DNA of 64,000 nucleotides, taken from NCBI RefSeq assembly GCF_900129765.1, contig NZ_FQWU01000002.1:868001-932000 (forward strand). Reading direction: 5' to 3'. This document shows positions 1 through 11,691 of the stretch, one piece after another. Position 1 is the stretch's first letter. Each line of letters begins with the position of its first letter. The translations under genes were made by a program, and so were the position numbers. Below the pieces are notes generated by a model. It searched no databases. It was not told where the DNA came from and saw only the letters and a program-made list of their open reading frames with translations. Source of the stretch: Massilia sp. CF038. Its GTDB lineage: Bacteria > Pseudomonadota > Gammaproteobacteria > Burkholderiales > Burkholderiaceae_D.

Positions 1-55
1 CTTGCTGCATGTCCGATGTAGCGGCATCGGCCGAGGTCTGCACCGTGCCTTAACC

Positions 56-98
56 GTCAAGTACAATCAGCCGCAACCGGCCAGCATCGGCCGTTCGC
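56..98 (+). repeat. Leader module, copy A
   Basis: GTCAAGTACAATC is followed by a CCGGCCAGCATCGGCCG stretch with short inverted repeats. The same arrangement recurs before several unrelated genes of the island (2666, 6637, 7158 and, on the minus strand, 10240). TACAAT (62-67) would serve as a -10 hexamer; no clear -35 is seen. The start codon of the next gene is 58 nt downstream of it. The promoter function is inferred. Confidence 0.6.
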
Positions 99-125
99 CA
101 TTCAAACGCAACTAAGGAACTCGCT

Positions 126-977
126 TTGGCTGACATCTTACTCACACCGGATGAGGGAGGCTACTACTGTCTGACGCGGGAACTGCCACCCGAGACAATG
201 CGTCAGCTGGCACAACTAAGTGCGTTGGAGCCGCTCAAGCTCAGCATCACCAAGATTGCGCAATTTGGTGTCGGGCACGCACGGTGTCTCGCTGGTCTGC
301 GGGTTCAGCAACTGTGGATATGGTGCGATGTAACGCGGGCGGCCATGAATCACATCCTGCAGCTTGAAGGACTACGGGAGCTCGACATCCTCTGTATGTC
401 CGGTCCAGGCAAATTGAAGAATTTTCACAAGGCCGTGCAGCTCGAAGTTTTTCGCGCCAATCATTACATGACTGAGCCCGACCTGCTCCAAGTGGCGCAA
501 TGCAAGTCCATTCGCGTGCTCGGTGCGCAAAATGCCGATCTAACGCAGTCCGCGTTTGCCGCGCTGCTGTCTATGCCCAACCTCACTGCGCTAGATCTTG
601 AAGCCACCCGCTTTGACGACAAGATGGCGAGGAAGATCAGTCGCTCCACCACCGTAACCTCGCTCGACGTCGGCGGAACTCGTCTGACGCGGGCTGGCCT
701 CGCACACCTAATGAAAATGACCCAGTTGCAGTCCCTCGACCTGTGGGCACTCGACTTGAACGCTACAGACCTCACGATACTGCTGACGCTCCCCAACCTG
801 GAATACGTGTCGTTCGGCGGAAATGATAATGCGCCGCCGCTCGACGCCGGTGCCATCACGACGTTAATTTTGGGAAGTCATAGTCTAAAGCGCGTTTGGC
901 TTGAAGGCATTCCGCTAGAGGTCCGTCAACGCGAAGCTCTGGAAGTCAAACTTGAATACTTGCACCTTTCTAACTGA
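126..977 (+). CDS. Leucine-rich-repeat protein
   Basis: The 283-residue product has irregular leucine-rich repeats (MPNLTALDLE, MTQLQSLDLW, LPNLEYVSFG) over roughly residues 45-250, so it should form a solenoid used for protein binding. No signal peptide or membrane segment is visible, so it is probably cytoplasmic. The chosen start is a TTG at 126 because AAGGAA sits seven bases upstream and no ATG is better placed. A copy of the island leader module lies upstream. The partner is unknown. LRR proteins in such arrays can be immunity proteins, but nothing here shows a toxin. A second LRR gene lies at the other end of the array on the opposite strand. Confidence 0.75.
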   Translation: MADILLTPDEGGYYCLTRELPPETMRQLAQLSALEPLKLSITKIAQFGVGHARCLAGLRVQQLWIWCDVTRAAMNHILQLEGLRELDILCMSGPGKLKNFHKAVQLEVFRANHYMTEPDLLQVAQCKSIRVLGAQNADLTQSAFAALLSMPNLTALDLEATRFDDKMARKISRSTTVTSLDVGGTRLTRAGLAHLMKMTQLQSLDLWALDLNATDLTILLTLPNLEYVSFGGNDNAPPLDAGAITTLILGSHSLKRVWLEGIPLEVRQREALEVKLEYLHLSN

Positions 978-1004
978 ACTATGGGCGGCGAGGGAGCATT
1001 GGTC

Positions 1005-1085
1005 CGATAGCAGCTTTGGGGTGCGGATTCAACCGCTCGCATTTACCAGCAACTAAAGGCCAGAAGTGGTCGAGCGCATTTTGCG
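1005..1085 (+). repeat. Second intergenic module (GGATTCAACCG type), copy 1
   Basis: The stretch GCAGCTTTGGGGTGCGGATT then CAACCGCTCG is closely matched at 7950-7980, where it precedes another gene. It follows the LRR gene and ends with AGGCCAGAAGTGGTC, which resembles the inner part of the leader module. It may be a related mosaic element. Function unknown. Confidence 0.5.
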
Positions 1086-1240
1086 CCAGTTAACGCGTTC
1101 GCCCCCGCCGCCGGCTGGTCGCGGGTAGTCCGCAAGTCGCTTTGGTCGCGCGGCCCGAGGCACGTCAACGGGTCTCGGGGCGAAGCCCTGAGAAGGGTGC
1201 TAGGCAAACGCAGGGAGTGTAACGACTGGAGCTTCGCCGA

Positions 1241-1272
1241 TTGCTATGCCGCCGCGCGCGGCGGTATAGCAA
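1241..1272. repeat. Near-perfect 32-nt hairpin
   Basis: TTGCTATGCCGCCGC pairs with GCGGCGGTATAGCAA with one G-T pair, giving a 15-bp stem around a two-base centre. No T-run follows, so it is not a standard terminator. It sits in a gene-free stretch upstream of the minisatellite. Confidence 0.7.
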
Positions 1273-1343
1273 AGCCTACCCTGTCCCGCTATTTTCATCG
1301 CCCTTTTTTCAGGCATGAGGCACTCGCACAGCGCCGCTAGTGA

Positions 1344-1451
1344 TACGTTCTCGAATACGTTTTTGCATACGATTTCGTCCACGTCTTTGTATACGTTTTC
1401 GTGTACGTTCTCGTGAACGTTTTTGTGAACGTTTTTGTGAACGTTTTTGTG
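1344..1451. repeat. 12-bp tandem minisatellite, nine units
   Basis: Nine consecutive 12-base units follow the pattern [T/A]ACGTTTTTGTG. The first units are diverged (TACGTTCTCGAA, TACGATTTCGTC) while the last three are identical (AACGTTTTTGTG). Because 12 is a multiple of three, open frames run through it on both strands, but none has a credible ribosome site or a folded-domain sequence outside the repeat, so the stretch is called non-coding. Confidence 0.85.
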
Positions 1452-1903
1452 ACGATTGTTGCGAAGACTCGTGCGACGGCTTTGGTGAACAAACACCGAC
1501 ACGATGCCTTGAACGAACACCTGAAAGACCGTATGAAGGCGTCCGTGCACGACCCCGCCTCCGCACTCCATGTGCGGCATCGGATGGGCCTCGCTTGGTG
1601 CGCTCGTCTATCGCCGCATGCTCTTGTGGTTCCGCCTTACCGCGCTTCGTCTTATGCACGGTATGCCGTTCGCGTTGGCGGCTTGACCCGCGGCATTGGC
1701 TGGTCCGTTCGGCGCCATTGGGACTCGCGTCTCCTGGCAACGGACGGCCCAACAAGTGTGGGCTCGGGCAGCGGTCCTCGTTGCGCGAAAGCGCGCCGTG
1801 TAACGCTTTTAAAGCTACGACGCTTAGCTACACTTGGTGATATGATTCCCAAAAGAAACAACCAGTAGATCTATCCCATACTCAACCTAGAACGATCACA
1901 CGC
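1452..1903. other. Gene-free stretch
   Basis: Open frames on both strands continue out of the minisatellite, but they show no recognisable domain, no convincing start signal and no coherent protein character. Apart from the repeat and hairpin listed separately, I see no gene between the LRR gene and the DUF2726 gene. Confidence 0.5.
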
Positions 1904-2404
1904 ATGAAAATAGTAATTGTCATCGCTTTGTTTGCCTTCATTGCCGCCATCTTGGTGGCCGTTACGCTAACGCAGCAAGGCAAAGAAAGGGCTGGCGCCT
2001 ACCGGAGGCGGAAGGTGATGTCGGAGAATGAACTAGAATTCTTCGGCCGTCTCGTAGCCGCGCTCCCCGACCATTATATTTTTCCTCAGGTCGCCATGAG
2101 TGCGCTACTGGAAGCCGCGAGCAGCGACAAGAAAACAGCCCACAGTGACCGGCTTCGCATCGCGCAGCAGCGCGCAGACTACATTGTTTGCACGAAGAAC
2201 TGTGACCTGGTTGCTGTCATCGAGTTGGACGACAGGACCCATTCAACGGCAAAGGATCAATTGCGGGATTCCCGCCTGGAGCAGGCCGGCATCCGCACCG
2301 TCCGGTTCCAGTCCCGCGCCAAGCCTACTGTCGATGTGCTCCGCGCCGCCATCGTTGGACAGACTTCAATGGCTGCTGCAGTGCAGGCCGCACCAATGCC
2401 TTGA
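1904..2404 (+). CDS. Membrane-anchored DUF2726 protein
   Basis: The 166-residue protein starts with one membrane segment (residues 3-23, IVIVIALFAFIAAILVAVT), followed by a basic stretch (YRRRK), which would place the rest in the cytoplasm. The remainder matches DUF2726: SENELEFFGRLVAAL, VFPQV-like FPQVAMSALL, ADYIVC and the motif VAVIELDD near residue 108. In this family the E-x-DD block resembles the core of restriction-like (PD-D/ExK) folds, so a nuclease-like role is possible but unproved. The gene stands alone and no leader module is visible before it. Confidence 0.75.
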   Translation: MKIVIVIALFAFIAAILVAVTLTQQGKERAGAYRRRKVMSENELEFFGRLVAALPDHYIFPQVAMSALLEAASSDKKTAHSDRLRIAQQRADYIVCTKNCDLVAVIELDDRTHSTAKDQLRDSRLEQAGIRTVRFQSRAKPTVDVLRAAIVGQTSMAAAVQAAPMP

Positions 2405-2759
2405 AGATCGCCGCTGCTCCTGGGACCGATGAAGCTTTGCGGCCCAGCGTGGTCGGCGACATAGGCGCGCGCGACCAGGAGCAGACTTATAAAATTTGAA
2501 TGATGCACGAGCTCACCCTCTTCCTGACTCAGATTTGTGGTACGACGATGGCTCCGTGCGGGCATGTGCAGTGATCGATGAGAACACTCAGATTGCGCTG
2601 CAGTGGCTATCCATCTATTGGAATCGCTGGTGGGGGCAACCGAGCCGACTAGCGCTGTTTTTGCCGTCAAGTACAATCGACAGTTGTCGGTCAGAAGCCG
2701 GTATTCGAACTCCGCACCATGGTCACCGCGTTTAACTTTAAGACTGGATCAAACGCCAC
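2405..2759. other. Spacer with inverted repeat and leader module
   Basis: CTGCTCCTGG (2414-2423) and CCAGGAGCAG (2475-2484) form a perfect 10-bp inverted repeat about 50 bases apart. A short open frame from about 2496 (beginning MNDARAHPLPDSDLWYDDG) runs into the repeat module and is probably a remnant or chance frame; I cannot assign it. The module itself is listed separately. Confidence 0.4.
2666..2707 (+). repeat. Leader module, copy B
   Basis: GTCAAGTACAATCGACAGTT continues into GTCGGTCAGAAGCCGG. TACAAT is at 2672-2677, about 82 nt before the ATG of the next gene. The first 12 bases are identical to copies A and F. Confidence 0.6.
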
Positions 2760-3113
2760 ATGAACTTCCTTCCCCTTGGGTTTCTTCTTGGTGGCTTTCT
2801 CTTAGGAGCGTGCATCTCGGAACGATCATTGCGCAGGGTGTCCGAGACTCAGCAAGGTCGGCTGCTGCGCGAAACGGCGATGCTACGAAAAATTCATCTG
2901 GTTGGTATTCCTCTTCTTCTGCTACTAGGATACTTTTTTCCTATCGCATTTTGGCCAGGCCTGACTGTATATTTTTTGCTTGCTACGTATTTGGTCGCTG
3001 CGCGACTGCGTTCGGTGGATTTGCCGATCGAGCTCAAACAGTGGCAAATCGGGTCGGTAGCATCGATAGCCGCAGGCGCAGGTATCGCATGGATTGCTAC
3101 CCTATTTTTTTAG
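2760..3113 (+). CDS. Small multi-pass membrane protein, unknown
   Basis: The 117-residue product has an N-terminal hydrophobic stretch (about residues 4-19), a polar segment, then three further hydrophobic stretches (about 47-66, 69-82 and 100-116), so it should be an inner-membrane protein with three or four passes. I do not recognise the family. The ATG at 2760 is the first in frame after the leader module; the ribosome site is weak. The Gly-rich start (LGFLLGGFLLGAC) resembles a helix-packing segment but not a clean lipobox with signal cleavage. Confidence 0.65.
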   Translation: MNFLPLGFLLGGFLLGACISERSLRRVSETQQGRLLRETAMLRKIHLVGIPLLLLLGYFFPIAFWPGLTVYFLLATYLVAARLRSVDLPIELKQWQIGSVASIAAGAGIAWIATLFF

Positions 3114-3177
3114 TGGCGCCTCCGCCAATTTATGAAGGTTCAAGGCTGCAGTGGCCGAGGTCGGCACGCACCGGCAC

Positions 3178-3212
3178 CGTCGGTTACCACCGGCCAAGAA
3201 CAGACCCTCGAG
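3178..3212 (+). repeat. Degenerate leader module
   Basis: CGTCGGTTACCACCGGCCAA followed by GAACAGACC aligns with the inner part of copy D (CGGCAGTAACCGGCTAGAAG). It lacks the TACAAT hexamer. The preceding GGCCGAGGTCGGCAC also resembles the sequence just before copy A. It lies about 60 nt before the DUF4240 gene. Confidence 0.4.
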
Positions 3213-3273
3213 GCGAAGAAGGCCTGTTGGCCCGGCAGAAGCACAAACAAATTTAACCTTGGCGAAAACTTCA

Positions 3274-3723
3274 ATGACTGATCCTGAATTCTGGAACCTG
3301 ATAGCGCTGATCGATGTGACTGCATTAGATGAAGGGCGCGAAGATGAGGCTGTCGAACCGTTGCAGACCGCACTGAATATGAAGTCAGAGGCTGAGCTAT
3401 TCGGCTTCGAAGAGGCCCTGTCTCAAAATCTCTATGCGATAGATGGCGATGTCTTCGCCGACAACGCAGGTGATTCCGGTGGTTCGGATGATGGGTTTCT
3501 TTACGCACGCTGCTTTGTAGTCGCAAAGGGGCAGGAGTTCTACGAAGCCGTGAAATCTGACTCCACACGGATGCCGAAGTCAATTGAGCAATGGTGTGAA
3601 TCCTTGCTTTATCCACATCGCGCCGCATGGGCGAAGCAGACGGGAAAAGATCAATCCGAATGGCCGTTCGAAGCAACCGTCAGTTATGAAAGCGGCAGCA
3701 ACGCGGAGCTCTGGCACGAGTAG
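3274..3723 (+). CDS. DUF4240 domain protein
   Basis: The 149-residue product matches DUF4240: it begins TDPEFWNLIAL, carries the FGFEEALSQNLYAID block near residue 50, then GSDDGFLYARCFVVAKGQEF, the usual SDDxFxxFRxWL-type core of the family. No signal peptide or membrane segment is present. The ATG at 3274 is chosen because the family starts with this FW motif; the upstream extension of the frame reads like translated repeat DNA. The biochemical role of DUF4240 is not known. It frequently occurs as a single small gene, as here. Confidence 0.8.
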   Translation: MTDPEFWNLIALIDVTALDEGREDEAVEPLQTALNMKSEAELFGFEEALSQNLYAIDGDVFADNAGDSGGSDDGFLYARCFVVAKGQEFYEAVKSDSTRMPKSIEQWCESLLYPHRAAWAKQTGKDQSEWPFEATVSYESGSNAELWHE

Positions 3724-3818
3724 AGTGCAGCTCTCGGCCAGGAGCTGCCCCTCGCAATGGGGCTCGGGCTCAGCGGCATGCAGAGCTGGTTTAGTTTAAT
3801 AGGTATTGGGCGCTATTT

Positions 3819-4319
3819 ATGAATGGATTCAATTGCCGAACATGCGGCGAGTATCACTCCGAGATGCCTATGTGCCTCGGAGCAGATGCGCCTGCCTTGT
3901 GGTACACGTTACCGGAGGCAGAGAGAGCCTCTCGTGCATTGCTTTCTTCTGACCAATGCGTAATCGACAACGAACATTTTTTCGTCCGTGGTCGCATCCT
4001 GCTCCCCATCGTAGAAAGCGATGACTCATTCATCTGGCTAGCTTGGGTTTCGCTAAGTGCTAAGAACTTCAAAAGAATGAGTGAGCTCTGGGATACTGAT
4101 GGGCGAGAGGCAGAACACCCATACTTCGGCTGGCTCCAGTCTGCACTTCCATATGCGGAGTCTACTCTGAGCTTGAAAACCGCAGTACATACTATGCCGC
4201 TTGGCGAGCGTCCGGAAATCGAGATTAAGTCGGAAGAACACCAACTCGCGACCGAGCAAATTCGCGGCATCTCGATGGCAAGGGTTCAAGAAATTGTGGA
4301 GCGCGCTTTACATGGGTAG
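3819..4319 (+). CDS. DUF2199 domain protein
   Basis: The 166-residue protein fits DUF2199 over its whole length: NGFNCRTCGEYHSEMPM with a CxxCGxxH metal-binding-like start, SSDQCVIDNEHFFVRGRI, FIWLAWVSLSAKNF, PYFGWLQSALP and a C-terminal HQLATEQIRGISMARVQEI. The two N-terminal cysteines and the histidine could bind zinc. It is soluble, has no known enzyme activity and stands alone on the plus strand. The start ATG follows a weak ribosome site. The spacer before it has no leader module, only an AT-rich TTTAGTTTAAT stretch that could carry a promoter. Confidence 0.85.
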   Translation: MNGFNCRTCGEYHSEMPMCLGADAPALWYTLPEAERASRALLSSDQCVIDNEHFFVRGRILLPIVESDDSFIWLAWVSLSAKNFKRMSELWDTDGREAEHPYFGWLQSALPYAESTLSLKTAVHTMPLGERPEIEIKSEEHQLATEQIRGISMARVQEIVERALHG

Positions 4320-4433
4320 TCCGCCTCGCCGGACTAGTTAAAAACAGTGCTGGACCGCCGGTTCACCGCCCCTGGTAGGTGCACTGAACGGGTAAAATGG
4401 ACCATGAGCCGACGCACAAGGGCAAGGAAAACA

Positions 4434-4775
4434 ATGATTTATCTTGACTGTTCGGGCGTCCGTTTTGGTTCACAGCTTGACGAGAAGCATCTGTTTGAGT
4501 GGGCGATGGAGATTCCCGGTATCCTTCGATGGGAACAGGACACACTGGTCGTGAGAACGATCCTATCGCAGGCCTCCCTGAGGGATCTCGTAGCTTTGTT
4601 CAGTCGGTATCAGATACCGATGGCACAACTTGCTCAATTCCGAACGACAAAGAACGAAGACTGGTTTGCTTCACCAGAGATGTATTGGCAAGGTCGCGTG
4701 TTCGGCACTTCGTTACAAATCGCCTCGCATGTTCAGGAGGCAGCTGGCGCACCAGGCTGTGAAAAATGGCGCTAA
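4434..4775 (+). CDS. Hypothetical protein
   Basis: The 113-residue acidic/amphipathic protein begins MIYLDCSGVRFGSQLDEKHL and has no domain I recognise. It lacks a signal peptide and membrane helices. The ATG at 4434 is preceded by AAGGAAA at good spacing, which argues for this start over an in-frame upstream one at 4347. Its size, isolation and position match the other orphan genes of the island, so an immunity-like role is conceivable but not shown. Confidence 0.6.
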   Translation: MIYLDCSGVRFGSQLDEKHLFEWAMEIPGILRWEQDTLVVRTILSQASLRDLVALFSRYQIPMAQLAQFRTTKNEDWFASPEMYWQGRVFGTSLQIASHVQEAAGAPGCEKWR

Positions 4776-4779
4776 CTAA

Positions 4780-5046
4780 GCGATAGGGTGTGTCCGATTA
4801 AACTGGGGCAAGATCAAAGACAAGTACGATGCATGGGGCACCTCATAGTGGCATTTTGAAGTCGGTACTGATGGCTGGGTGACTCGGCAGATTGAACAGT
4901 ACGATTGCGGGATGCGGCTTCGCTATGGGCCTGCACATGAGGCTGACGAATCTGGGGGGCTTGCTCAGGCCGCACTTGCGCTATCGGATCCGGAGTACGT
5001 ATCGATTTCTCAGCAGGAATTCGATACGCTTTGGCAGCACTTGTAG
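4780..5046 (+). pseudogene. Broken DUF6881-like gene
   Basis: One reading frame (phase of position 4795) gives RLNWGKIKDKYDAWGTS, a TAG at 4846-4848, then WHFEVGTDGWVTRQIEQYDC and, after a charged stretch, SDPEYVSISQQEFDTLWQHL before the true stop at 5044-5046. The EVGxDGWVTRQIE and SxQEFxxLW patterns resemble DUF6881 proteins. There is no start codon between the preceding stop (4777-4779) and this sequence, and the internal stop breaks it, so both the N-terminus and continuity are lost. The family call is from memory of the pattern. Confidence 0.6.
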
Positions 5047-5225
5047 CGATCCATTTCGGCCGATAGCGGACTTTGGCGACCTAATGGAATGCTACTTCAC
5101 CCTGCACGGCAGCGCCCATCTGATACGTAGCAACGGGGCCTCTCCCCTGTCCTGTTCCGCATTCACGCAATGCCGAGCAGAGTTGGAAAGCTGCAGATGC
5201 TTTGTCTCGGCTTAGACGAGATCGG

Positions 5226-5268
5226 GTACGATTGCCGCACCTGACACCACGCCGGATTCACGCCGGCT
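5226..5268 (+). repeat. Leader module variant (TACGAT)
   Basis: GGTACGATTGCCGCAC is followed by CACGCCGGATTCACGCCGGC, which contains an inverted GCCGG...CCGGC. TACGAT (5227-5232) replaces TACAAT. It lies 44 nt before the SMI1/KNR4 start codon. It shares GGATTCA with the second module type. Confidence 0.4.
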
Positions 5269-5276
5269 TCAAGCGA

Positions 5277-5648
5277 ATGCAAAAGCTTACCAATCCTGAA
5301 ATTGATGCAATTGAATCCGATCTTGGATTTCAGCTTCCTGGACTCTACAGAAAGCTTCTGATCGAAATTGGGCACGGAGAGTGCGATGGCTTCGAAATCT
5401 ATCACCCCCGCGAGATCTCCGGCCTCTATGAACATCACTTCGATAACCCGGCAGATCTCTTCAGGTCCTACTTCCCTTTCGGCTGTAACAACCGAATGCA
5501 GGAGATTTGTTTGATCGATCCTTCGAGAGAGGTCGCGGCGAGTATCTGGCATGAAACCCACCCTGATGACTACCCTGACGAAAGATGGCTGCCATACGAG
5601 CAGTGGATGCTCGAGCATGACAGCAAGCTTCCGCGCGCGGAAATCTAA
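5277..5648 (+). CDS. SMI1/KNR4 (SUKH) family protein
   Basis: The 123-residue protein follows the SMI1/KNR4 pattern: LTNPEIDAIESDLGFQLPG, LYRKLLIEIGHGECDGFEIY, then YFPFGCNNRMQEICLIDPSRE and a C-terminal DDYPDERWLPYEQW. SUKH proteins are best known as immunity proteins against polymorphic toxins and contact-dependent effectors; no toxin gene is visible next to it. The ATG at 5277 fits the domain start. An upstream extension of the frame into the repeat module is not credible. Alternative: a SUKH protein with a housekeeping protein-binding role. Confidence 0.85.
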   Translation: MQKLTNPEIDAIESDLGFQLPGLYRKLLIEIGHGECDGFEIYHPREISGLYEHHFDNPADLFRSYFPFGCNNRMQEICLIDPSREVAASIWHETHPDDYPDERWLPYEQWMLEHDSKLPRAEI

Positions 5649-5851
5649 CGTTAGCGGAGCCCATTTTGAGGTTCATCGCGTGACAATGTCGTCCTAGGAA
5701 CGCGAAGTAGCCAGACATCGTAATCGCACAGACAAAGGGCAGGTACGGCACGACGAACAGCGAGTGACTTCTTGACGCAACAAGGCCAGTAGAACGCGAG
5801 GCGCCTTTGCTGCCCACCTTGATTAATGGTAGTTCCAAATTAGATAGGCCA

Positions 5852-6535
5852 ATGGAAAATTTCAGACGTCAACTCGCACGTTCCGCTACAAGGTTTGAAA
5901 TTGGTGGTTTTCGGCCTCCACAGGACGAATTTGAGAGCTGGTTTGGCCGCGTGAATGTTTGTGCCCCTGGCGAATCTTGGCCGGAGTCCGGAGGAAAGCC
6001 GATGCATGCACTTTGTCAGATCAACATGCGAACGCTCGCAACCAGACCCGAACGTCTCGCAGACATCGATCTCATTGCCATATTTGTCGGCCCAGATGAC
6101 CTCCCCATTGATACACCGAATGGTGAAAACTCGTGCCTTCGTGCTTACAAAAATATTGACACCTTAGTCGGCCTTCCCCCGAGAGATACAAAGTCGCAGA
6201 TCCGAGCTCTTCCTATGCGGCCAATCGCGATTCAAGAGGATTTCCCCTGCTGGGAAGATGTGCCAACTGAAATCGCCGCCGAGGTCGATGAGCACTATTT
6301 CGATCTGTTTGAAAACATCGGTGGTCTGAAACTGGGTGGTTGGCCAATGCTGGTGCAATCTGAAATTTATTGGGCGCCATGGAACCGACATCCAGCGTTG
6401 CCAGAATACGTGTTTCAAATCGACTCTACTGAGAAAGGCAATTGGATGTGGGGAGACGCAGGCGTAGGCTATTTTGGGCGAGGGACGGCGCCGGGAATGG
6501 AAGACGAATGGGCGCTAGCATGGCAATGTCTCTAG
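5852..6535 (+). CDS. DUF1963/YwqG-like protein
   Basis: The 227-residue protein shows the DUF1963 (YwqG) layout: an early GFRPPQDEFESWFGRV, a middle CQINMRTLA segment where the family usually reads Q-I-N/D, and the C-terminal block KLGGWPMLVQSEIYW followed by YVFQIDSTEKGNWMWGDAG. The conserved KLGGxP...Q...WGD elements are all present. Function of the family is unknown; members are common in orphan immunity arrays. The ATG at 5852 gives the usual length. No leader module is seen upstream, so this gene may use its own promoter. Confidence 0.8.
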   Translation: MENFRRQLARSATRFEIGGFRPPQDEFESWFGRVNVCAPGESWPESGGKPMHALCQINMRTLATRPERLADIDLIAIFVGPDDLPIDTPNGENSCLRAYKNIDTLVGLPPRDTKSQIRALPMRPIAIQEDFPCWEDVPTEIAAEVDEHYFDLFENIGGLKLGGWPMLVQSEIYWAPWNRHPALPEYVFQIDSTEKGNWMWGDAGVGYFGRGTAPGMEDEWALAWQCL

Positions 6536-6636
6536 GCATTTAATTTCGTTCACCAAATAACCAAAGAGGACCGATAAACGCAGATCTGCAACGTCGGCAA
6601 TGGGGCAGTCGCCGACGACCATGTGTGCGTGGCCGG

Positions 6637-6664
6637 GTACAATCGGCCAGAAGCCGTCACTCGC
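6637..6664 (+). repeat. Leader module, copy C (shortened)
   Basis: GTACAATCGGCCAGAAGCCG keeps the TACAATCGGC and CAGAAGC parts but lacks the roughly nine bases between them in copy D. Upstream GCCGACGACCAT matches GCCGACAGCAT of copy D, so homology extends 5' of the hexamer. The next start codon is 62-77 nt downstream. Confidence 0.55.
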
Positions 6665-6705
6665 TGGACTGCTTCCATCTTTCGTCAACTCCGATCCACG
6701 ATTGC

Positions 6706-7098
6706 ATGCCCATCAACGCCATGAAAAACCTCACCGTGATTTTGGTCGACCCACCTGACGATGAAGCACCGTCAGTTACGCTCCGAAGCGAACAAGGTGA
6801 GCTGGTTGCATTTTGCTATCCGTGCAGCCTCAAGGTGGGCGATGTCATCGCAAACCGTCTAACGGTTCTGGATGCCGATGTTCGGGCGGCTTATTTGTCT
6901 GACTGGCCGGCCGACCAAAAGGAGGCGCTGTCCTCAGATTACCTTGAACGGATCAGCCATTACGCCTATCGTGGACGGGGACGCGTTATCGACGCTGAGA
7001 GAGGGCTAGTTGAAGTGCAAGGTTTTGTGATTGAGATGGGCGCCGCGAACGAAGGCCATGTCGATTTCGAGATCAATCGCCTCGATATAAGCCTTTAG
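6706..7098 (+). CDS. Hypothetical protein
   Basis: The 130-residue soluble protein (125 if the second ATG at 6721 is used) contains ELVAFCYPCSLKVGDVI with a C-x-x-C pair, then DVRAAYLSDWPADQKEA and YAYRGRGRVIDAERGLVEV. The beta-rich C-terminal part with GRVID...LVEVQGFVIEM suggests an OB-like or small barrel fold. I do not recognise the family by name. It follows a leader module and is followed by another, so it behaves like one self-contained unit of the array. Confidence 0.65.
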   Translation: MPINAMKNLTVILVDPPDDEAPSVTLRSEQGELVAFCYPCSLKVGDVIANRLTVLDADVRAAYLSDWPADQKEALSSDYLERISHYAYRGRGRVIDAERGLVEVQGFVIEMGAANEGHVDFEINRLDISL

Positions 7099-7157
7099 GT
7101 CACGACGAAACAGTCCACCTCGGGCGGCCGCGGGCAATTCGCCGACAGCATTTTGAT

Positions 7158-7200
7158 GTCGAGTACAATCGGCAGTAACCGGCTAGAAGCGGCCAGTCAC
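7158..7200 (+). repeat. Leader module, copy D
   Basis: GTCGAGTACAATCGGCAGTA continues as ACCGGCTAGAAGCGGCCAGT. This is the fullest copy and comes closest to the consensus drawn from all of them. TACAAT is at 7164-7169; the next start codon is 54 nt downstream. The GCCGACAGCA before it also matches copy C. Confidence 0.65.
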
Positions 7201-7223
7201 GTCAAAACTATTCTTTGCTTGTC

Positions 7224-7577
7224 ATGTCTCTACTGTCACCAACATTGAACTGGATTGTCAAGGCGTGGAACGAAATGGGCAAAGAGTTTTGCTCGGTCGA
7301 AATTCCGGTCCTACAGTTTCATCACTTTGATACTGACGATCTGGGGTTTCCCTTCCGGAATTCAGCCATTAATTCTTGGCGCTTAGTATCTGGACAGGTG
7401 ATTGCTGATCCAGAAGTGAAATTGTCTCGAGTGCCTTACGTGGCATTTTGCTTGAGCGAGCAAAAGTCTACCGTGCATGTGCAGGTGCAATGGGCTACAC
7501 GGTGCGGCTATGGATGGGATATCAAATTTGGCACCCATGGGGAAGTCAGCAGTCAGAAACTGCGATGGATCTCCTAG
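7224..7577 (+). CDS. Hypothetical protein
   Basis: The 117-residue product begins MSLLSPTLNWIVKAWNEMGK and is rich in aromatic residues; no known domain is apparent. The middle part (VIADPEVKLSRVPYVAFCLS) and C-terminal HVQVQWATRCGYGWDIKFG look like beta strands. No signal peptide is seen. The ATG at 7224 is preferred over a TTG three codons upstream. It is separated by about 55 bases from the next small gene, which may be co-transcribed. Confidence 0.55.
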   Translation: MSLLSPTLNWIVKAWNEMGKEFCSVEIPVLQFHHFDTDDLGFPFRNSAINSWRLVSGQVIADPEVKLSRVPYVAFCLSEQKSTVHVQVQWATRCGYGWDIKFGTHGEVSSQKLRWIS

Positions 7578-7632
7578 ACTTGTTGTAGCCCCCGGGGCAG
7601 CGCTGGAACGAATGCGGGGCATCTCCACGTCA

Positions 7633-7890
7633 ATGACAGAGTTGGACGAGTTAAAGGAATTTGCCCGTGTTGCGACTCGATCCGCACTTGAAGGATATGA
7701 GCGCATACCTGAGGAGTGGGAGCTGAATCTGACTCTCAGGACTTCTTTCGACGGTGACCATCGAATTTTCGAGCTGTACGTTGCTGCCGAACGGCCTGTC
7801 GATACGGTAGTGATCAGTTCCGCAACTGTGAATCGAAAGACGAAAGCAGTTGTCGTCGCAATCCCAAATCTAATGCAGAAGGCGAAATAA
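7633..7890 (+). CDS. Small hypothetical protein
   Basis: The 85-residue product (MTELDELKEFARVATRSALE onward) has an N-terminal helix, then a strand-rich part (RIFELYVAAERPVDTVVIS) ending in AVVVAIPNLMQKAK. I do not recognise it. An in-frame ATG at 7612 would add seven residues. It may be translated with the preceding gene, since only 55 bases separate them and no leader module lies between. Confidence is limited by its size. Confidence 0.45.
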   Translation: MTELDELKEFARVATRSALEGYERIPEEWELNLTLRTSFDGDHRIFELYVAAERPVDTVVISSATVNRKTKAVVVAIPNLMQKAK

Positions 7891-7924
7891 TAACCCTTCC
7901 TTCCTCCCAAAAATAACATGCCGC

Positions 7925-7981
7925 GAATACGATTGTGCAGTCGCGTAGGCTGCTTTGAGGTCCGGATTCAACCGGTCGACG
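7925..7981 (+). repeat. Mixed module: TACGAT plus GGATTCAACCG element
   Basis: GAATACGATTGTGCAGTCGC is followed by GCTGCTTTGAGGTCCGGATT and CAACCGGTCGAC. The second half matches 1010-1040 with only a few differences. It lies just before the DUF6678-like gene. GGATTCAACCGGTCGAC could also be an old transposon end; there is no transposase nearby. Confidence 0.45.
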
Positions 7982-8006
7982 CAGCACACTAATACCCAAG
8001 AACGCC

Positions 8007-8438
8007 ATGAATGACTTGCCAAACGCCGGAACCGGAAGCAACGAGGTAGTACGAAAAAAAATTGACGCGGCCGTCGCTGCCAGGAACTTAGGTGCCGTGT
8101 CAAACAACACTCGCTGGAATGAGCTGATCAATCACTTCCGCAGTCTGACGGAATGGCGTCCGTCTTACCGGTCCAAATCGGTGACCGGGCATATTTCCGA
8201 TTGGGACGTTGAGTGGTTCTACCATTTGCCTTTTCCGTTCGCGTCCGTCGAATGGTTTGATATCGGTCTATGGGAGCCGGTCCCCGCAAAAGGGATGCTG
8301 CTCGCACCTTCCAATATTGACCATACGGTTGAAATTTCTGAGATCGTCAAACAGATCGGTTTCGAATTCGAGGTACGCGGCGACATCCTCAGGATCTGGG
8401 GCTACGTGCCGAAATCTTACGAGGACTTCCCGCGCTGA
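8007..8438 (+). CDS. DUF6678-like protein
   Basis: The 143-residue protein has the pattern I associate with DUF6678: an N-terminal helix, SNNTRWNELINHFRSL, WRPSYRSKSV, then FASVEWFDIGLWEPV and a C-terminal IVKQIGFEFEVRGDILRIWG ending in YVP. The N-terminal NNTxWxEL and the IEWL-like VEWF blocks are the strongest matches. It is soluble with no catalytic motif I can identify. It is the last plus-strand gene of the array and converges with a minus-strand operon 50 bases downstream. Confidence 0.6.
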   Translation: MNDLPNAGTGSNEVVRKKIDAAVAARNLGAVSNNTRWNELINHFRSLTEWRPSYRSKSVTGHISDWDVEWFYHLPFPFASVEWFDIGLWEPVPAKGMLLAPSNIDHTVEISEIVKQIGFEFEVRGDILRIWGYVPKSYEDFPR

Positions 8439-8487
8439 TCCTTACGGTTCGACGTGCTCCAGCAGCCTGATGAAGTCTGGTGCAACC

Positions 8488-9093
8488 TTAGGGCTGGGAC
8501 TCTCTGGAACCTTCGGGGACGGGGAATGGTCTCTGATCGGACACTACTCCCTGCCCGGCATCGCGAAGGATTACGATCAAACTTTGCGCGAACTGCAGAA
8601 ACCCAGCCGCCACGCTCATGACCTCCTCAAACCTCACGGTCTCTAATGCTTCGACTTGCTTCTTAACGTCTTGATCGTAGTGGCCTGCGGCGTGATTGCG
8701 AACGGGGTGCCAGCCTTTCAGTTGCTTGAGTTCCGCTTTCCACCGTCGCTTCAGATCGTTAATAGCGCTTGCTTCGACCGCGATGTCACGCGCCTCTGCT
8801 AGAGCCAGCAACCTAGGTAGCAGCGTTGTCCTCAAGCGCGCGTCAAACTCAAACAGCCGCAGTACCAATCCCTTAAGAGCGACGGATAGCGCGAAGCCAA
8901 TGGGCTGATTGCGCAGCACCGTCGTCATCTCCACGCACACATCGTATTGGAATATGCAAGTCTGCAGCTTTATCTCTACGAATTCATGCGAGAGCGCATT
9001 AGTCGGCAACGAATAGTGCTTGTAGGCCTCGTTTAGGTTGGTCTGCGCCTTGAGGACCATCTTCTCAAAATCGATCTCGTATATGGGCGTCAC
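8488..9093 (-). CDS. Helical protein with HEPN-like R-x5-H motif
   Basis: The 201-residue protein is almost entirely alpha-helical, with no signal peptide or membrane segment. Near residue 131 it reads HPVRNHAAGHYDQD; the R-x5-H in it fits the Rx4-6H signature of HEPN ribonuclease/toxin and abortive-infection families. The start is a GTG at 9093, four bases after the stop of the LprI-like gene, so it is the third gene of an operon. A methionine at codon 12 is an alternative start. HEPN membership is inferred from the motif and helical content only; overall similarity was not tested. Confidence 0.5.
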   Translation of the reverse strand: MTPIYEIDFEKMVLKAQTNLNEAYKHYSLPTNALSHEFVEIKLQTCIFQYDVCVEMTTVLRNQPIGFALSVALKGLVLRLFEFDARLRTTLLPRLLALAEARDIAVEASAINDLKRRWKAELKQLKGWHPVRNHAAGHYDQDVKKQVEALETVRFEEVMSVAAGFLQFAQSLIVILRDAGQGVVSDQRPFPVPEGSRESQP

Positions 9094-9097
9094 AGCG

Positions 9098-9481
9098 TTA
9101 GGACCGTTTCGAGAGGGCGTTCAAGTCGATGAGACGAGTGTCGTTCAGCCGTATCAGACACGAGCGCTCGTACGACGGAGCTGCTGTGCCATTTTCTGAA
9201 TTCCGTGAGTGCTGGATGCGAGTGAGGTCTAACTCAACACCGCACTGCTTCATACGATAGTCTCTCCACGCCTCATGCGCTGCAATCAGCATTGGCCTGC
9301 GCGTGTTGTCCGCACCTTTCACTAACGCCGAGTTGGCCTTCTCTACTTGCATGGACGTGTCTTCCAGAGTCGTTTTACTACAAGCTTCGTCAGAAAACCA
9401 AAACGGTTTCTCACGGCAGTTCTCAGCCAATGCAGCTGATGGTAGAGATAGTAGAATCAGGAGGTAAAGGGCCGGCCGCAT
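9098..9481 (-). CDS. LprI-like (DUF1311) secreted protein
   Basis: The 127-residue product begins with a clean signal peptide (MRPALYLLILLSLPSAALA) and has cysteines that could form disulfides in the mature part. The C-terminal half carries the DUF1311 pattern (AHEAWRDYRMKQCGVELDL, then a Cys-containing RSCLIRLNDTRLIDL). Proteins of this type include lysozyme inhibitors (LprI), but the activity here is not demonstrated. The ATG at 9481 lies one base after the stop of the upstream LRR gene, a tight operon junction; this and the signal peptide fix the start. Confidence 0.75.
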   Translation of the reverse strand: MRPALYLLILLSLPSAALAENCREKPFWFSDEACSKTTLEDTSMQVEKANSALVKGADNTRRPMLIAAHEAWRDYRMKQCGVELDLTRIQHSRNSENGTAAPSYERSCLIRLNDTRLIDLNALSKRS

Positions 9482-9482
9482 A

Positions 9483-10187
9483 TCAGTCTTCGTGGCAAAG
9501 ATGCCCCGTTGCGCCGAACGCCTTGTATCGGTACGTTCTAAATTCCCCTTTGGACACGTACTCCTTCGCACTTTCATTGCGCACCTTAAGATGCTCTTCA
9601 ACCTCCGCGCTCTTGAGATTGTAGTGACGCTTGTCCAGAAAGCCCGCATTTACAAGCTTGGGATGATTCATCAGTGGCGTCAGATCGCCATCAAGAACGC
9701 TTGTGTCAACAAATCGGAAGTCCAGCAGGTTCGGCATTTTCTCCAGAAAGCGAAGATTGTCTAGTGGCGCGCACCCGTTCAAGCATAGAACCTTCAGATT
9801 GCGAAGGTCAAACAGGTCACTCTTCGGACTGAACTTTCGCGACGTGTTCACATGGAGCCATTCGAGATGATCTCCTATACCGGAGAGTCCTGCGTCGCTC
9901 TCAAGCTTCAGGCACCAACTAAGTTCAAGGCGCTTGATTTTGCCTAGTTTTGCGATTTCCGAGAAGGACGTGATGTTTGAAAAATTCATTTCAACGTATT
10001 CAGCTGAGGTGACGCCACTCAGCCCATGAAAGCCGGGCTCCTTGGTTTTGAACCTCTGAATACGATAGTACGTTGCACCTGCCACTGCTTCAGACAAGGC
10101 CTTACCGCGTTCAAACTCGATGGTCGCCAATTGGCCTCGTGGCAAGCGATCCATCCATATCGTGTTGTAAGTCCAATCCATCTGCAT
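9483..10187 (-). CDS. Leucine-rich-repeat-like protein
   Basis: The 234-residue product carries degenerate leucine-rich repeats between about residues 60 and 180 (KIKRLELSWCLKLE, LEWLHVNTS, LRNLKVLCLNGC, MPNLLDFRFVDTS). No signal peptide is visible, so it should be cytoplasmic, unlike its operon partner. It is the first gene of a three-gene minus-strand operon with the LprI-like and HEPN-like genes and follows leader-module copy F. The protein-binding solenoid suggests it neutralises or recruits something. It resembles the LRR gene at 126-977 in type, not in obvious sequence. Confidence 0.65.
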   Translation of the reverse strand: MQMDWTYNTIWMDRLPRGQLATIEFERGKALSEAVAGATYYRIQRFKTKEPGFHGLSGVTSAEYVEMNFSNITSFSEIAKLGKIKRLELSWCLKLESDAGLSGIGDHLEWLHVNTSRKFSPKSDLFDLRNLKVLCLNGCAPLDNLRFLEKMPNLLDFRFVDTSVLDGDLTPLMNHPKLVNAGFLDKRHYNLKSAEVEEHLKVRNESAKEYVSKGEFRTYRYKAFGATGHLCHED

Positions 10188-10199
10188 TTTCTCGCTGTG

Positions 10200-10240
10200 G
10201 GCAACGGCAGCTTGTGGCCGGCAACGCTATTGTACTTGAC
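10200..10240 (-). repeat. Leader module, copy F (minus strand)
   Basis: Read on the minus strand, GTCAAGTACAATAGCGTTGC continues as CGGCCACAAGCTGCCG. TACAAT is at 10229-10234. The start codon at 10187 is 41 nt downstream. The first 12 bases equal copies A and B, and here the module faces the other way with its gene, which ties it to the gene rather than to the DNA strand. Confidence 0.6.
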
Positions 10241-10263
10241 GTGCCATTGTGATTAACCGGCGC

Positions 10264-11460
10264 TCAGGGCCACGCCGCGCAATAGCTCGCCCACGCCTGC
10301 ATCAACGTCACCCGCTTCTCGAACAGATCTCCACGCCGATACGCCGCCTCCACCTTGTCCGGCAAGCTGTGAGCCAGCGCATGCTCGCACACCTCGCGCG
10401 AGAACGCGTTGCTCGCCTCCTCCGAGCACCAGTCGCGGAAGGTGGACCTGAAGCCATGCACCGTGATGTCCCCGTGCCCCATGCGCCTTAAAACGGCCGT
10501 CAGGCTCATATCGGACAAAGGCAGGTCTTTGCCCCGGCCAGGGAAAACAACGTCGCCAACGCGCTCCAATGACTTCAGAAGGACCATCGCCGCAATCGAC
10601 AAGGGAACCCTGTGCTCCTTCCCCGCCTTCATGCGTCCGGCCGGAATCGTCCACACCTTCGCAACGAGATCGATCTCGCTCCACCTGGCGCCACGCACTT
10701 CGCCCGACCTGCACGCAGTGAGGATCGTGAACTCGATGGCCCGCGCAGCCACGCCCTCGCACGCGCGCAGTTCGTCCATGAAGCCACCCACGTCGCGCCA
10801 CGGAAGCGCGGGATGGTTCTTCACCGGTGCGATCTTGTTCGGATTGGCCAGCAGATTATCGAGATGCCCGCGCCAGCGCGCCGGGTTGTCCCCCTGCCGG
10901 AATTTGCTGACGGTCGCCCAACCGAGTATGGCCTCGATGCGTCCACGCAGACGCACCGCCGTCTCGGTCTTGTTTCGCCAGATGGGCCGCAACACCTTGA
11001 CCACCAGGTCCGTATCGACAGCCGCCACGGGCAGCCCGCCAATCAACGGACTCGCATACGTGGCGATGGTGTTCTCCCACTGGGCCACATGCTTCGTATT
11101 CTTCCAGCTCCCCCGATGCGCATCGATATACGCCGCAGCACATTCATCGAACGTGATGCGCTTCGCTTCATCAAGAGCATGCGCACGCCGCGCATCGCGC
11201 CGCTGCCCCAGCGGATCGACACCATCGAGCAGCATCTGCCGGCACGCCCTCGCCTTCGCGCGCGCGCCGGCCAGGTCCACGGTGATGCAAGACCCCAGCC
11301 CCATCTCGTGCGACCGGCCATCGCGCATGTAACGAAAGATCCAGCTCTTTGATCCAGACCGCGACACCTGCAGCCAAAGTCCGCCACCATCCCCATGGTA
11401 GCCAGGCTTGTCGAGCCTGCCAACGAGTATGGCGGAGAGTTTGTTGATCCGAGAGGCCAT
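10264..11460 (-). CDS. Tyrosine site-specific integrase, P4 type
   Basis: The 398-residue protein has the DUF4102-like arm-binding start (GYHGDGGGLWLQVSRSGSKS, W-I-F-R-Y), a central core-binding part (residues about 105-190) and a C-terminal catalytic domain. Catalytic residues are visible: Arg in TACRSGEVRGARW, His and Arg in HGFRSTFRDW, His in CEHALAH and the Tyr in VEAAYRRGD. It should integrate the island at the neighbouring tRNA-Ser gene. The start ATG at 11460 follows a GGAA-type ribosome site. No excisionase gene is recognised nearby. Confidence 0.93.
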   Translation of the reverse strand: MASRINKLSAILVGRLDKPGYHGDGGGLWLQVSRSGSKSWIFRYMRDGRSHEMGLGSCITVDLAGARAKARACRQMLLDGVDPLGQRRDARRAHALDEAKRITFDECAAAYIDAHRGSWKNTKHVAQWENTIATYASPLIGGLPVAAVDTDLVVKVLRPIWRNKTETAVRLRGRIEAILGWATVSKFRQGDNPARWRGHLDNLLANPNKIAPVKNHPALPWRDVGGFMDELRACEGVAARAIEFTILTACRSGEVRGARWSEIDLVAKVWTIPAGRMKAGKEHRVPLSIAAMVLLKSLERVGDVVFPGRGKDLPLSDMSLTAVLRRMGHGDITVHGFRSTFRDWCSEEASNAFSREVCEHALAHSLPDKVEAAYRRGDLFEKRVTLMQAWASYCAAWP

Positions 11461-11601: not shown

Positions 11602-11691
11602 TGGCGGAAGCGGTGAGATTCGAACTCACGAAGGGCGCAAACCCTCGCCAGTTTTCAAGACTGGTGCCTTCAACCACTCGGCCACGCTTCC
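11602..11691 (-). tRNA. tRNA-Ser (UGA)
   Basis: The 90-nt gene has the 7-bp acceptor pair GGAAGCG/CGCTTCC, an encoded CCA end, a long variable arm typical of tRNA-Ser, the T-loop GTTCGAATC and an anticodon loop CTTGAAA giving UGA. It is the likely attachment site of the island, since the integrase lies directly beyond its 3' end. No second copy of its 3' end is found to the left, so the far end of the island is outside the window. Confidence 0.93.

Follow-up and report, generated by a model that had tools for sequence, protein, structure and literature searches.

The window analysed here, a stretch of 64,000 nucleotides from Massilia sp. CF038 (bases 868001-932000 of contig C6, NZ_FQWU01000002.1, in a genome of 5.66 Mb and 14 contigs), opens on an island of small genes in which a junction element of about 90 bp recurs. 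With five clear junctions of what we call type 1, two weak ones and at least one of another type, lying before leucine-rich-repeat (LRR), DUF4240, DUF2199, DUF6678 and orphan genes, the island looks like a degraded array (Table 1). The full junction consists of a left arm, RE (GTCCGCTTTGGGGCG), a variable part, the segment CCGTCGAGTACAATCGGCAGnnn and a right arm, LE (CGGCCAGAAGCGGAC), and the middle between RE and LE carries a -10-like hexamer. Comparison with related genomes brings out arrays of co-oriented genes, sharing between loci that breaks at LE, middles that appear to be exchanged separately, and differing cassettes at one conserved locus, which together suggest a cassette system.

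A sequence-only reading of the window had listed five strong copies of a promoter- and leader-like module, and the pattern GTCAAGTACAATCGGC with at most 3 mismatches indeed has exactly 5 matches in the 64 kb, at 56, 2666, 6632 (the copy placed earlier at 6637), 7158 and, on the minus strand, 10240-10225, against 0.42 expected and with none of 100 shuffles reaching 5. The second half alone, CCGGCCAGAAGCGGCC, was weaker, giving 7 matches against 2.26 expected, a number that one of 100 shuffles also gave. All five copies, the minus-strand one included, point with their downstream open reading frame (ORF) as that reading had it, and its 40-80 bases to the start codon are roughly right, the 16-mer lying 70, 94, 89, 66 and 53 bp from the chosen starts. 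The inverted-repeat stretch that it saw is real as the right arm LE of the junction, of which the left arm RE is roughly the inverse. Three weaker relatives had also been proposed. The one at 3178 is a marginal copy, matched by the type-1 junction profile (R1) at 3139-3209 (13 bits, E 0.02 in 244 kb; 12.7 bits, E 0.56 genome-wide), while those at 7925 and 5226 were unmatched by the profile: 7925 sits just 5' of an RE-like joint of the other junction type (7949-7978, with 87% identity to 1010-1039 over 30 bp), and 5226 is a different promoter-like sequence, GTACGATTGCCG..ACCTGACACC, which by eye also stands before ORFs near positions 10157 and 11786 of L005, a region that takes in DNA to the left of the window, and differs from the LE/RE junctions. 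That reading did not list a weak copy at 3689-3753 or the LE-like joints found at 1057 and 5057.

Table 1. Junctions, gene units and neighbouring features in the window (bits and E values from profile R1)
Feature	Position	Strand	Details
Junction copy 1	14..96	+	Degenerate left arm; TACAAT 62-67; LE 78-92; 43.5 bits, genome E 1.4e-10
LRR gene 3' of copy 1	126-977	+	Pfam
Other junction type past LRR gene	1006..1071	+	RE-like 1006-1024 (by eye); LE-like 1057-1071 (LE scan); 30-nt repeat 1010-1039 / 7949-7978
Junction copy 2	2630..2706	+	TACAAT 2672-2677; LE 2688-2702 (by eye); 39 bits, genome E 3.5e-9; gene 2760-3113 next
Marginal copy	3139..3209	+	LE-like 3191-3205 (by eye); 12.7-13 bits; DUF4240 gene 3274-3723 next
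Weak copy	3689..3753	+	Overlaps end of DUF4240 gene; LE 3735-3749; 15.8 bits, genome E 0.06; DUF2199 gene 3819-4319 next
Short-form copy	6591..6662	+	TACAAT 6638-6643 abutting LE 6644-6658; 22.2 bits, genome E 6.2e-4; gene 6721-7098 next
Gene unit from LE	6644..7117	+	Gene 6721-7098; 6645-7199 81% identical to L110:4379-4930 (G007)
Best copy in window	7118..7199	+	TACAAT 7164-7169; LE 7180-7194; 54.1 bits, genome E 6.7e-14; gene 7224-7577 next
RE-like joint, other junction type	7949..7978	+	5' of DUF6678 gene 8007-8438
Minus-strand copy	10203..10242	-	TACAAT 10234-10229; LE 10220-10206; 18.5 bits, genome E 0.009; gene 9483-10187 next
Gene unit from exact LE start	9505..10220	-	Common to L121 (G015; 81%, same start); L121 unit also in L172 (G006; 82%)
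Phage-type tyrosine integrase	10264..11460	-	Pfam; adjoins tRNA-Ser 11602-11691, right side of island

The profile is a sequence-only model built from an alignment of 27 copies, picked from 46 for a recognisable left half and covering about 93 positions; the look-alikes in L063 and L064, apparently coding sequence, were excluded. With the best 150 candidates scored in the genome searches, at least 35 places in the window's genome matched at E<=1, and 22 of the 35 fell in three clusters at C6:867-878 kb (8, the window island), C2:1495-1505 kb (11) and C2:175-179 kb (3). Among the candidates scored, 16 of 17 genomes of the genus were matched at E<=0.01, G003 and G005 weakly (0.002-0.004), and G001 was unmatched. 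Stricter filters and the best 21 candidates, applied across the family, gave at least 23 of 195 genomes in 8 of 44 genera. Searched as a pattern, the element was present in 12 of 100 relatives, all within the genus (reversed control, 0), three of the matches (GAACAATCGG...) resembling one conserved coding sequence; exact relatives of the motif are present in Rugamonas, Pseudoduganella and Massilia frigida. Across 398 sampled genomes of the phylum, the RE-like pattern GTCCGCTTTGGGKCGNNNGC occurred in 14 (the window's genome included, and 2 in the family) against 1 for its reversed control, and the exact LE-like pattern occurred in 3, the same as its reversed control, which leaves a wide reach of LE unsupported. 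One 90-bp element compared with plasmid and phage collections had no match in either. In the literature on Massilia repeats, orphan-immunity arrays, attC sites, integrase-independent cassettes, mobile insertion cassettes and mobile promoters, mostly non-subscription papers that leave absence unproven, we found no description of these junctions.

Three further occurrences deserve mention. A compact motif close to AATGTCCGCTTTGGGTCGGAAGCAGTCATTC in L158-L160, from distant genomes of the phylum, looks like an RE fused to an LE-like half with no middle. Long runs of LE with many type-3 middles (see below) are present in L201 and L202, from another genus of the family, the L201 run lying on the smaller contig of a two-contig genome (G188:C2, 155,828 bp). 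In G010, contigs C40, C23, C240, C231 and C290 each end 11-136 bp past a junction element, as if near-identical junctions had broken the assembly.

The regions compared numbered 46 at first and, with 40 added later, 86 in all (888,492 bases). From 139 profile matches in the first 46, 135 non-overlapping ones remained once four overlapping matches were dropped, the copy that L005 has in common with the window also being left out, and their median spacing was 0.7 kb. More than one element was present in 36 of the 46 regions, and 35 of these 36 held a single orientation; the window alone was mixed, because of its minus-strand copy at 10240. Random orientation, a chance the sequence-only reading had raised, is the opposite of what LE displays: scanned by itself over the 86 regions, it lay 225 times on the array strand and 17 times on the other, a count that is partly circular because regions without profile matches were oriented by their LE majority, and the cleaner count, of LE outside profile matches in regions oriented by those matches, was 39 to 7. 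Nor does LE lie away from start codons, since 165 of the 225 had an ATG-initiated ORF of at least 60 amino acids (aa) within 160 bp downstream, a figure to be set against 62 of 225 for the reverse direction and 49% for random positions in the arrays. Window positions 14001-64000 held no LE on either strand.

An ORF of at least 60 aa began within 160 bp after 194 of the 225 LE, at a median of 62 bp, and the median length was 128 aa. A survey of 150 of these 194 ORFs, with some starts corrected, found 64 Pfam families, none with more than three members at E<=0.001; among the 25 families listed the commonest were Imm35 (3), SMI1_KNR4, SUKH_6, barstar, TonB_C and DDE_Tnp_1 (2 each), and the others were single. 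The array in the C2 contig of the window's genome (L034) consists of about 20 small plus-strand ORFs in a row, as called by a crude gene caller, with minus-strand ORFs on both sides, and 1 of 10 of its proteins passed the Pfam cut-off (DUF695). Seven array loci held no known RNA families at gathering thresholds.

When the 86 regions were compared all against all, 143 stretches of at least 150 bp proved to be shared. In ten of them both copies had LE close to where sharing began; the other 133 were left unsorted, many being insertion sequences or chromosome. In eight of the ten, sharing started no more than 1 bp from LE, at 0 bp in six (L034/L111, L034/L116, L116/L189, L121/L172, L121/window and L133/L134) and at 1 bp in two (L110/window and L005/L142, the latter being the gene just left of the window, from L005:12505 onwards, with its relative in G011), and identity in these pairs rose from 35-55% in the 60 bp preceding LE to 67-90% past it. 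In L104/L120 sharing started 36 bp before LE because both copies have type-1 middles, and the alignment was unbroken only from just before LE, with an identical leader; L164/L176, the tenth case, was uninformative. At the 3' side, L104/L120 ended exactly at RE in both copies, the sole pair to pass a strict RE-end test, one L133/L134 stretch and L104/L133 diverged just past GGGGCG by eye, and L034/L116 and L005/L142 diverged around a degenerate RE. Since sharing starts at LE and ends at RE in the clearest cases, the gene appears to travel with its LE, and with RE along in those cases. For the DUF6678 gene of the window, the homologue at L141:5597-6028 was 72% identical over 380 bp, with LE upstream and a profile element 23 bp past the shared stretch.

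The middles behaved differently from the genes. Among 46 RE-middle-LE junctions, 20 middle pairs drawn from 17 junctions were 80-98% identical, whereas the 100 bp of flank on each side of those pairs was 33-45% identical, compared with 41% for random sequence. Middle lengths were clustered, 21 of 48 at 53-55 bp, 13 of 48 at 72-73 bp and three at 32 bp within a full range of 21-130, and the families, type 1 (GAGTACAATCGGCAG), type 2 (CTGCAGTAGAATGGTCGG), type 3 (GGCAACCTGCTATGCT) and a further type with TTGCTC-17 bp-TACACT (spacing by eye), look unrelated save for the -10-like hexamer. Defined as TANNNT with at least 4 of 6 matches to TATAAT, such a hexamer started 6-30 bp before LE in 120 of 225 junctions (53%) compared with 461 of 4500 controls (10%); it was not enriched at -60..-32 (19 of 225, 8%, against 12% in controls), and with the TACAAT type left out it was present in 58 of 160. 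From these sequence features we infer that the middles may be active promoters. The sequence-only reading's shared expression signal thus survives in part, the TACAAT segment looking like an expression module, with -10-like hexamers enriched before LE in other middle families too, but the signal and the rest of the junction do not form one block. RNA-mediated movement, with a transcript start near LE, is not favoured because the distance from hexamer to LE varies by middle type while the breakpoint stays at LE.

One locus, beside a coaD-like ORF (by eye), could be compared in two species. In G012 (L105) and G009 (L118) the left flank was common up to the promoter-like GGTACAATCGTCTCCAGGCAACTkCCGCyTT and the start of LE, different genes followed past LE (by eye two cassettes, one broken by insertion sequences, in one and three in the other), and similarity resumed at RE into the right flank, as would be expected of a cassette platform whose first promoter is fixed. 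In G002, G007, G014 and G016 the outer flanks of the locus were kept and the DNA next to the joints differed.

We consider it probable, at roughly 0.6, that these arrays are an integron-like modular cassette system in which promoter units and gene units are swapped independently at LE/RE joints. LE, a 5' leader and a single small gene would make up a gene unit, together with RE where it is kept; a promoter unit would be the middle, mostly 21-76 bp, running from the RE of one gene unit to the LE of the next and directed into the next gene. Swaps of either kind would break at the joints with orientation fixed, and for that reason a newly placed gene would land behind a promoter. On the simplest account exchange would be site-specific and carried out in trans, probably through an excised intermediate, and we infer a recombinase that recognises both LE and RE. 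The proposal of the sequence-only reading that the module is itself the recombining part fares in part likewise: sharing does start at the right border of the module and, in the cleanest case, stops at its left border, but LE (GGCC..GGCC) travels with the gene and the TACAAT segment is exchanged separately. A stronger form of the cassette reading, that this is a previously undescribed site-specific recombination of the Massilia group acting on two module kinds at LE and RE, re-pairing genes with promoters through a recombinase other than the integron integrase, we put forward tentatively.

Several observations weigh against the cassette reading. Each region was fetched for holding type-1 junctions, which biases the sample, and the eight LE-start pairs represent seven gene units; in one of the pairs (L034/L116) sharing started 22-23 bp inside LE under other BLAST settings. 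The 3' border is drawn less sharply than the 5' one; in L121/window and L034/L111 sharing stopped near the gene end with no common RE. A strict scan found RE within 130 bp upstream of 48 LE and none for 178 (control rate 2.9%), and in some cases LE directly follows the stop codon of the preceding gene, so RE and middle are missing from many junctions. At the coaD-like locus no clean empty site was found, G004 retaining part of a cassette, and no recombinase for LE/RE was identified. RE and LE are roughly inverse to each other, with 82-98% complementarity at 4 of the first 6 arm positions in sites partly chosen on those positions, but covariation between the arms is weak, the observed value being reached by 109 of 2000 permutations across junctions and 295 of 2000 within cassettes, and the junction alignment contains no compensatory pairs. 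A conserved RNA or DNA hairpin was rejected on the last two results, even though single junction copies fold (z +0.3 to -3.6).

It is rather unlikely that no dedicated enzyme is involved and that the short repeated joints of imported DNA recombined by ordinary or illegitimate routes to form the arrays, while selection kept genes behind promoters. The failure to find a recombinase, the imperfection of many junctions and the mere ~15 bp of the joints fit such an origin; sharing that begins at the very base of LE in six of the ten cases and one base away in two more fits it poorly, as do the clustered middle lengths, and less precision would be expected of recombination through short homology. 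Among known systems, pdif (XerCD) modules and mobile insertion cassettes hold small genes between short sites and lack an enzyme of their own. LE and RE seem unlike dif.

A Correia-like, promoter-bearing miniature inverted-repeat transposable element (MITE) seems unlikely as well. RE-middle-LE would then be the ~90-bp element, with RE and LE as terminal repeats, inserted upstream of many genes, and its length, approximately inverted ends, -10-like hexamers and near-identical interiors at unrelated sites all resemble such elements, of which PMC10969869 describes examples with sigma70-like promoters. In the present arrays, however, LE goes with the gene rather than with the middle, orientation follows that of the array even for LE outside profile matches, and several unrelated middle families use the same joints. 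Target-site duplications are absent too, a loose scan finding an edge direct repeat of at least 3 bp in 0 of 79 elements where chance (1.4%) would give about one, although old copies could have lost them. Mobile promoters (Matus-Garcia 2012 and van Passel 2014, as cited in PMC8049555) are likewise similar promoter-like sequences upstream of non-homologous genes, as are the 20 middle pairs at or above 80% identity with unrelated flanks; what differs here is that the borders are fixed joints and that the genes, too, are delimited modules.

That an IS5-family transposase mobilises gene units bounded by LE and RE as non-autonomous cassettes is quite improbable. In 6 of 86 regions the transposase (NF033580, 145.7 bits against a cut-off of 110) follows downstream of the last recognised element, at a distance of about 40 bp to 2.5 kb. 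Judged by eye and with no control, an RE-like joint precedes each of the eight copies with a readable 5' end, one of them with a deletion between. The gene is present in only 6 of 17 genomes, the window's not among them, truncation or a frameshift affects several copies, the right end of the transposase element, GGCGCTCTTA, does not resemble LE, the junctions show no target duplications, and it may only prefer RE as a target; it may be the mover or a passenger targeting RE. Copies lie downstream of the arrays in L104, L111, L117, L120, L141 and L142, and where the 5' end is readable a similar leader of about 45 bp follows the RE-like joint.

In integron arrays the attC sites carry R'' and R' boxes, RYYYAAC ... 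GTTRRRY. Integron gene cassette arrays resemble those described here in their co-oriented small unrelated genes with joints, in a common promoter-like stretch with which at least one array begins, in differing cassettes at one locus and in junctions that fold, but the idea that an IntI integrase moves the junctions as attC sites is very improbable, and we rejected it on boxes and integrase. Both attC-type R boxes were present in 0 of 225 LE junctions (control 0.6%), TIGR02249 scored above its cut-off in 0 of 17 genomes of the genus, the best being a partial match in a 197-aa open frame of G010 (225 bits against 265), and, unlike attC, the promoter-like middle stands at many junctions and is exchanged apart from the gene. 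The role of the R boxes in attC is treated in PMC2727003. A plain regulon, in which the junctions are the conserved promoter and leader of immobile small-gene islands, is hardly credible, for although the hexamers before LE and the median of 62 bp from LE to the start codon would suit it, it leaves RE at gene 3' ends, the LE breakpoints and the differing cassettes at one locus unexplained.

Should the arrays prove to be a modular cassette system exchanged at LE and RE, they would constitute a second bacterial cassette platform besides integrons, one that carries promoters as well as genes. Captured genes could then arrive expressed and be re-tuned later by promoter exchange, which would account for this family's islands of small orphan and immunity-like genes, and LE and RE would offer a sequence handle for finding captured genes elsewhere.

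The gene at 2760-3113 had no match in a Pfam search, that at 9483-10187 gave a weak LRR_4 match under the cut-off, and for the protein of 6721-7098 no relative was found in viral contigs. A PADLOC defence-gene search with 10 window proteins gave no match, and the tRNA was the only known RNA family in the first 12 kb of the window at gathering thresholds. For the integrase at 10264-11460 no link to the junctions was found, and no 17-mer of the 3' part of the tRNA-Ser that could mark an attachment repeat was found in L005, L006 or L041. At 1166-1296 the window shares a G+C-rich, strongly folding, non-coding-looking element with L005:9447-9577 (80% identity over 133 bp); the window copy has no Rfam match, and each copy is followed by a T-rich stretch, with a 12-bp repeat at 1345-1450 in the window and a basic repetitive ORF on the opposite strand in L005. 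Further left, on the minus strand of L005:970-8648, translations read by eye include a 483-aa ORF, a 750-aa ATPase/histidine-kinase-like protein, two DNA-methyltransferase-like proteins and a 364-aa ORF, a row that is possibly a defence island beside the array.

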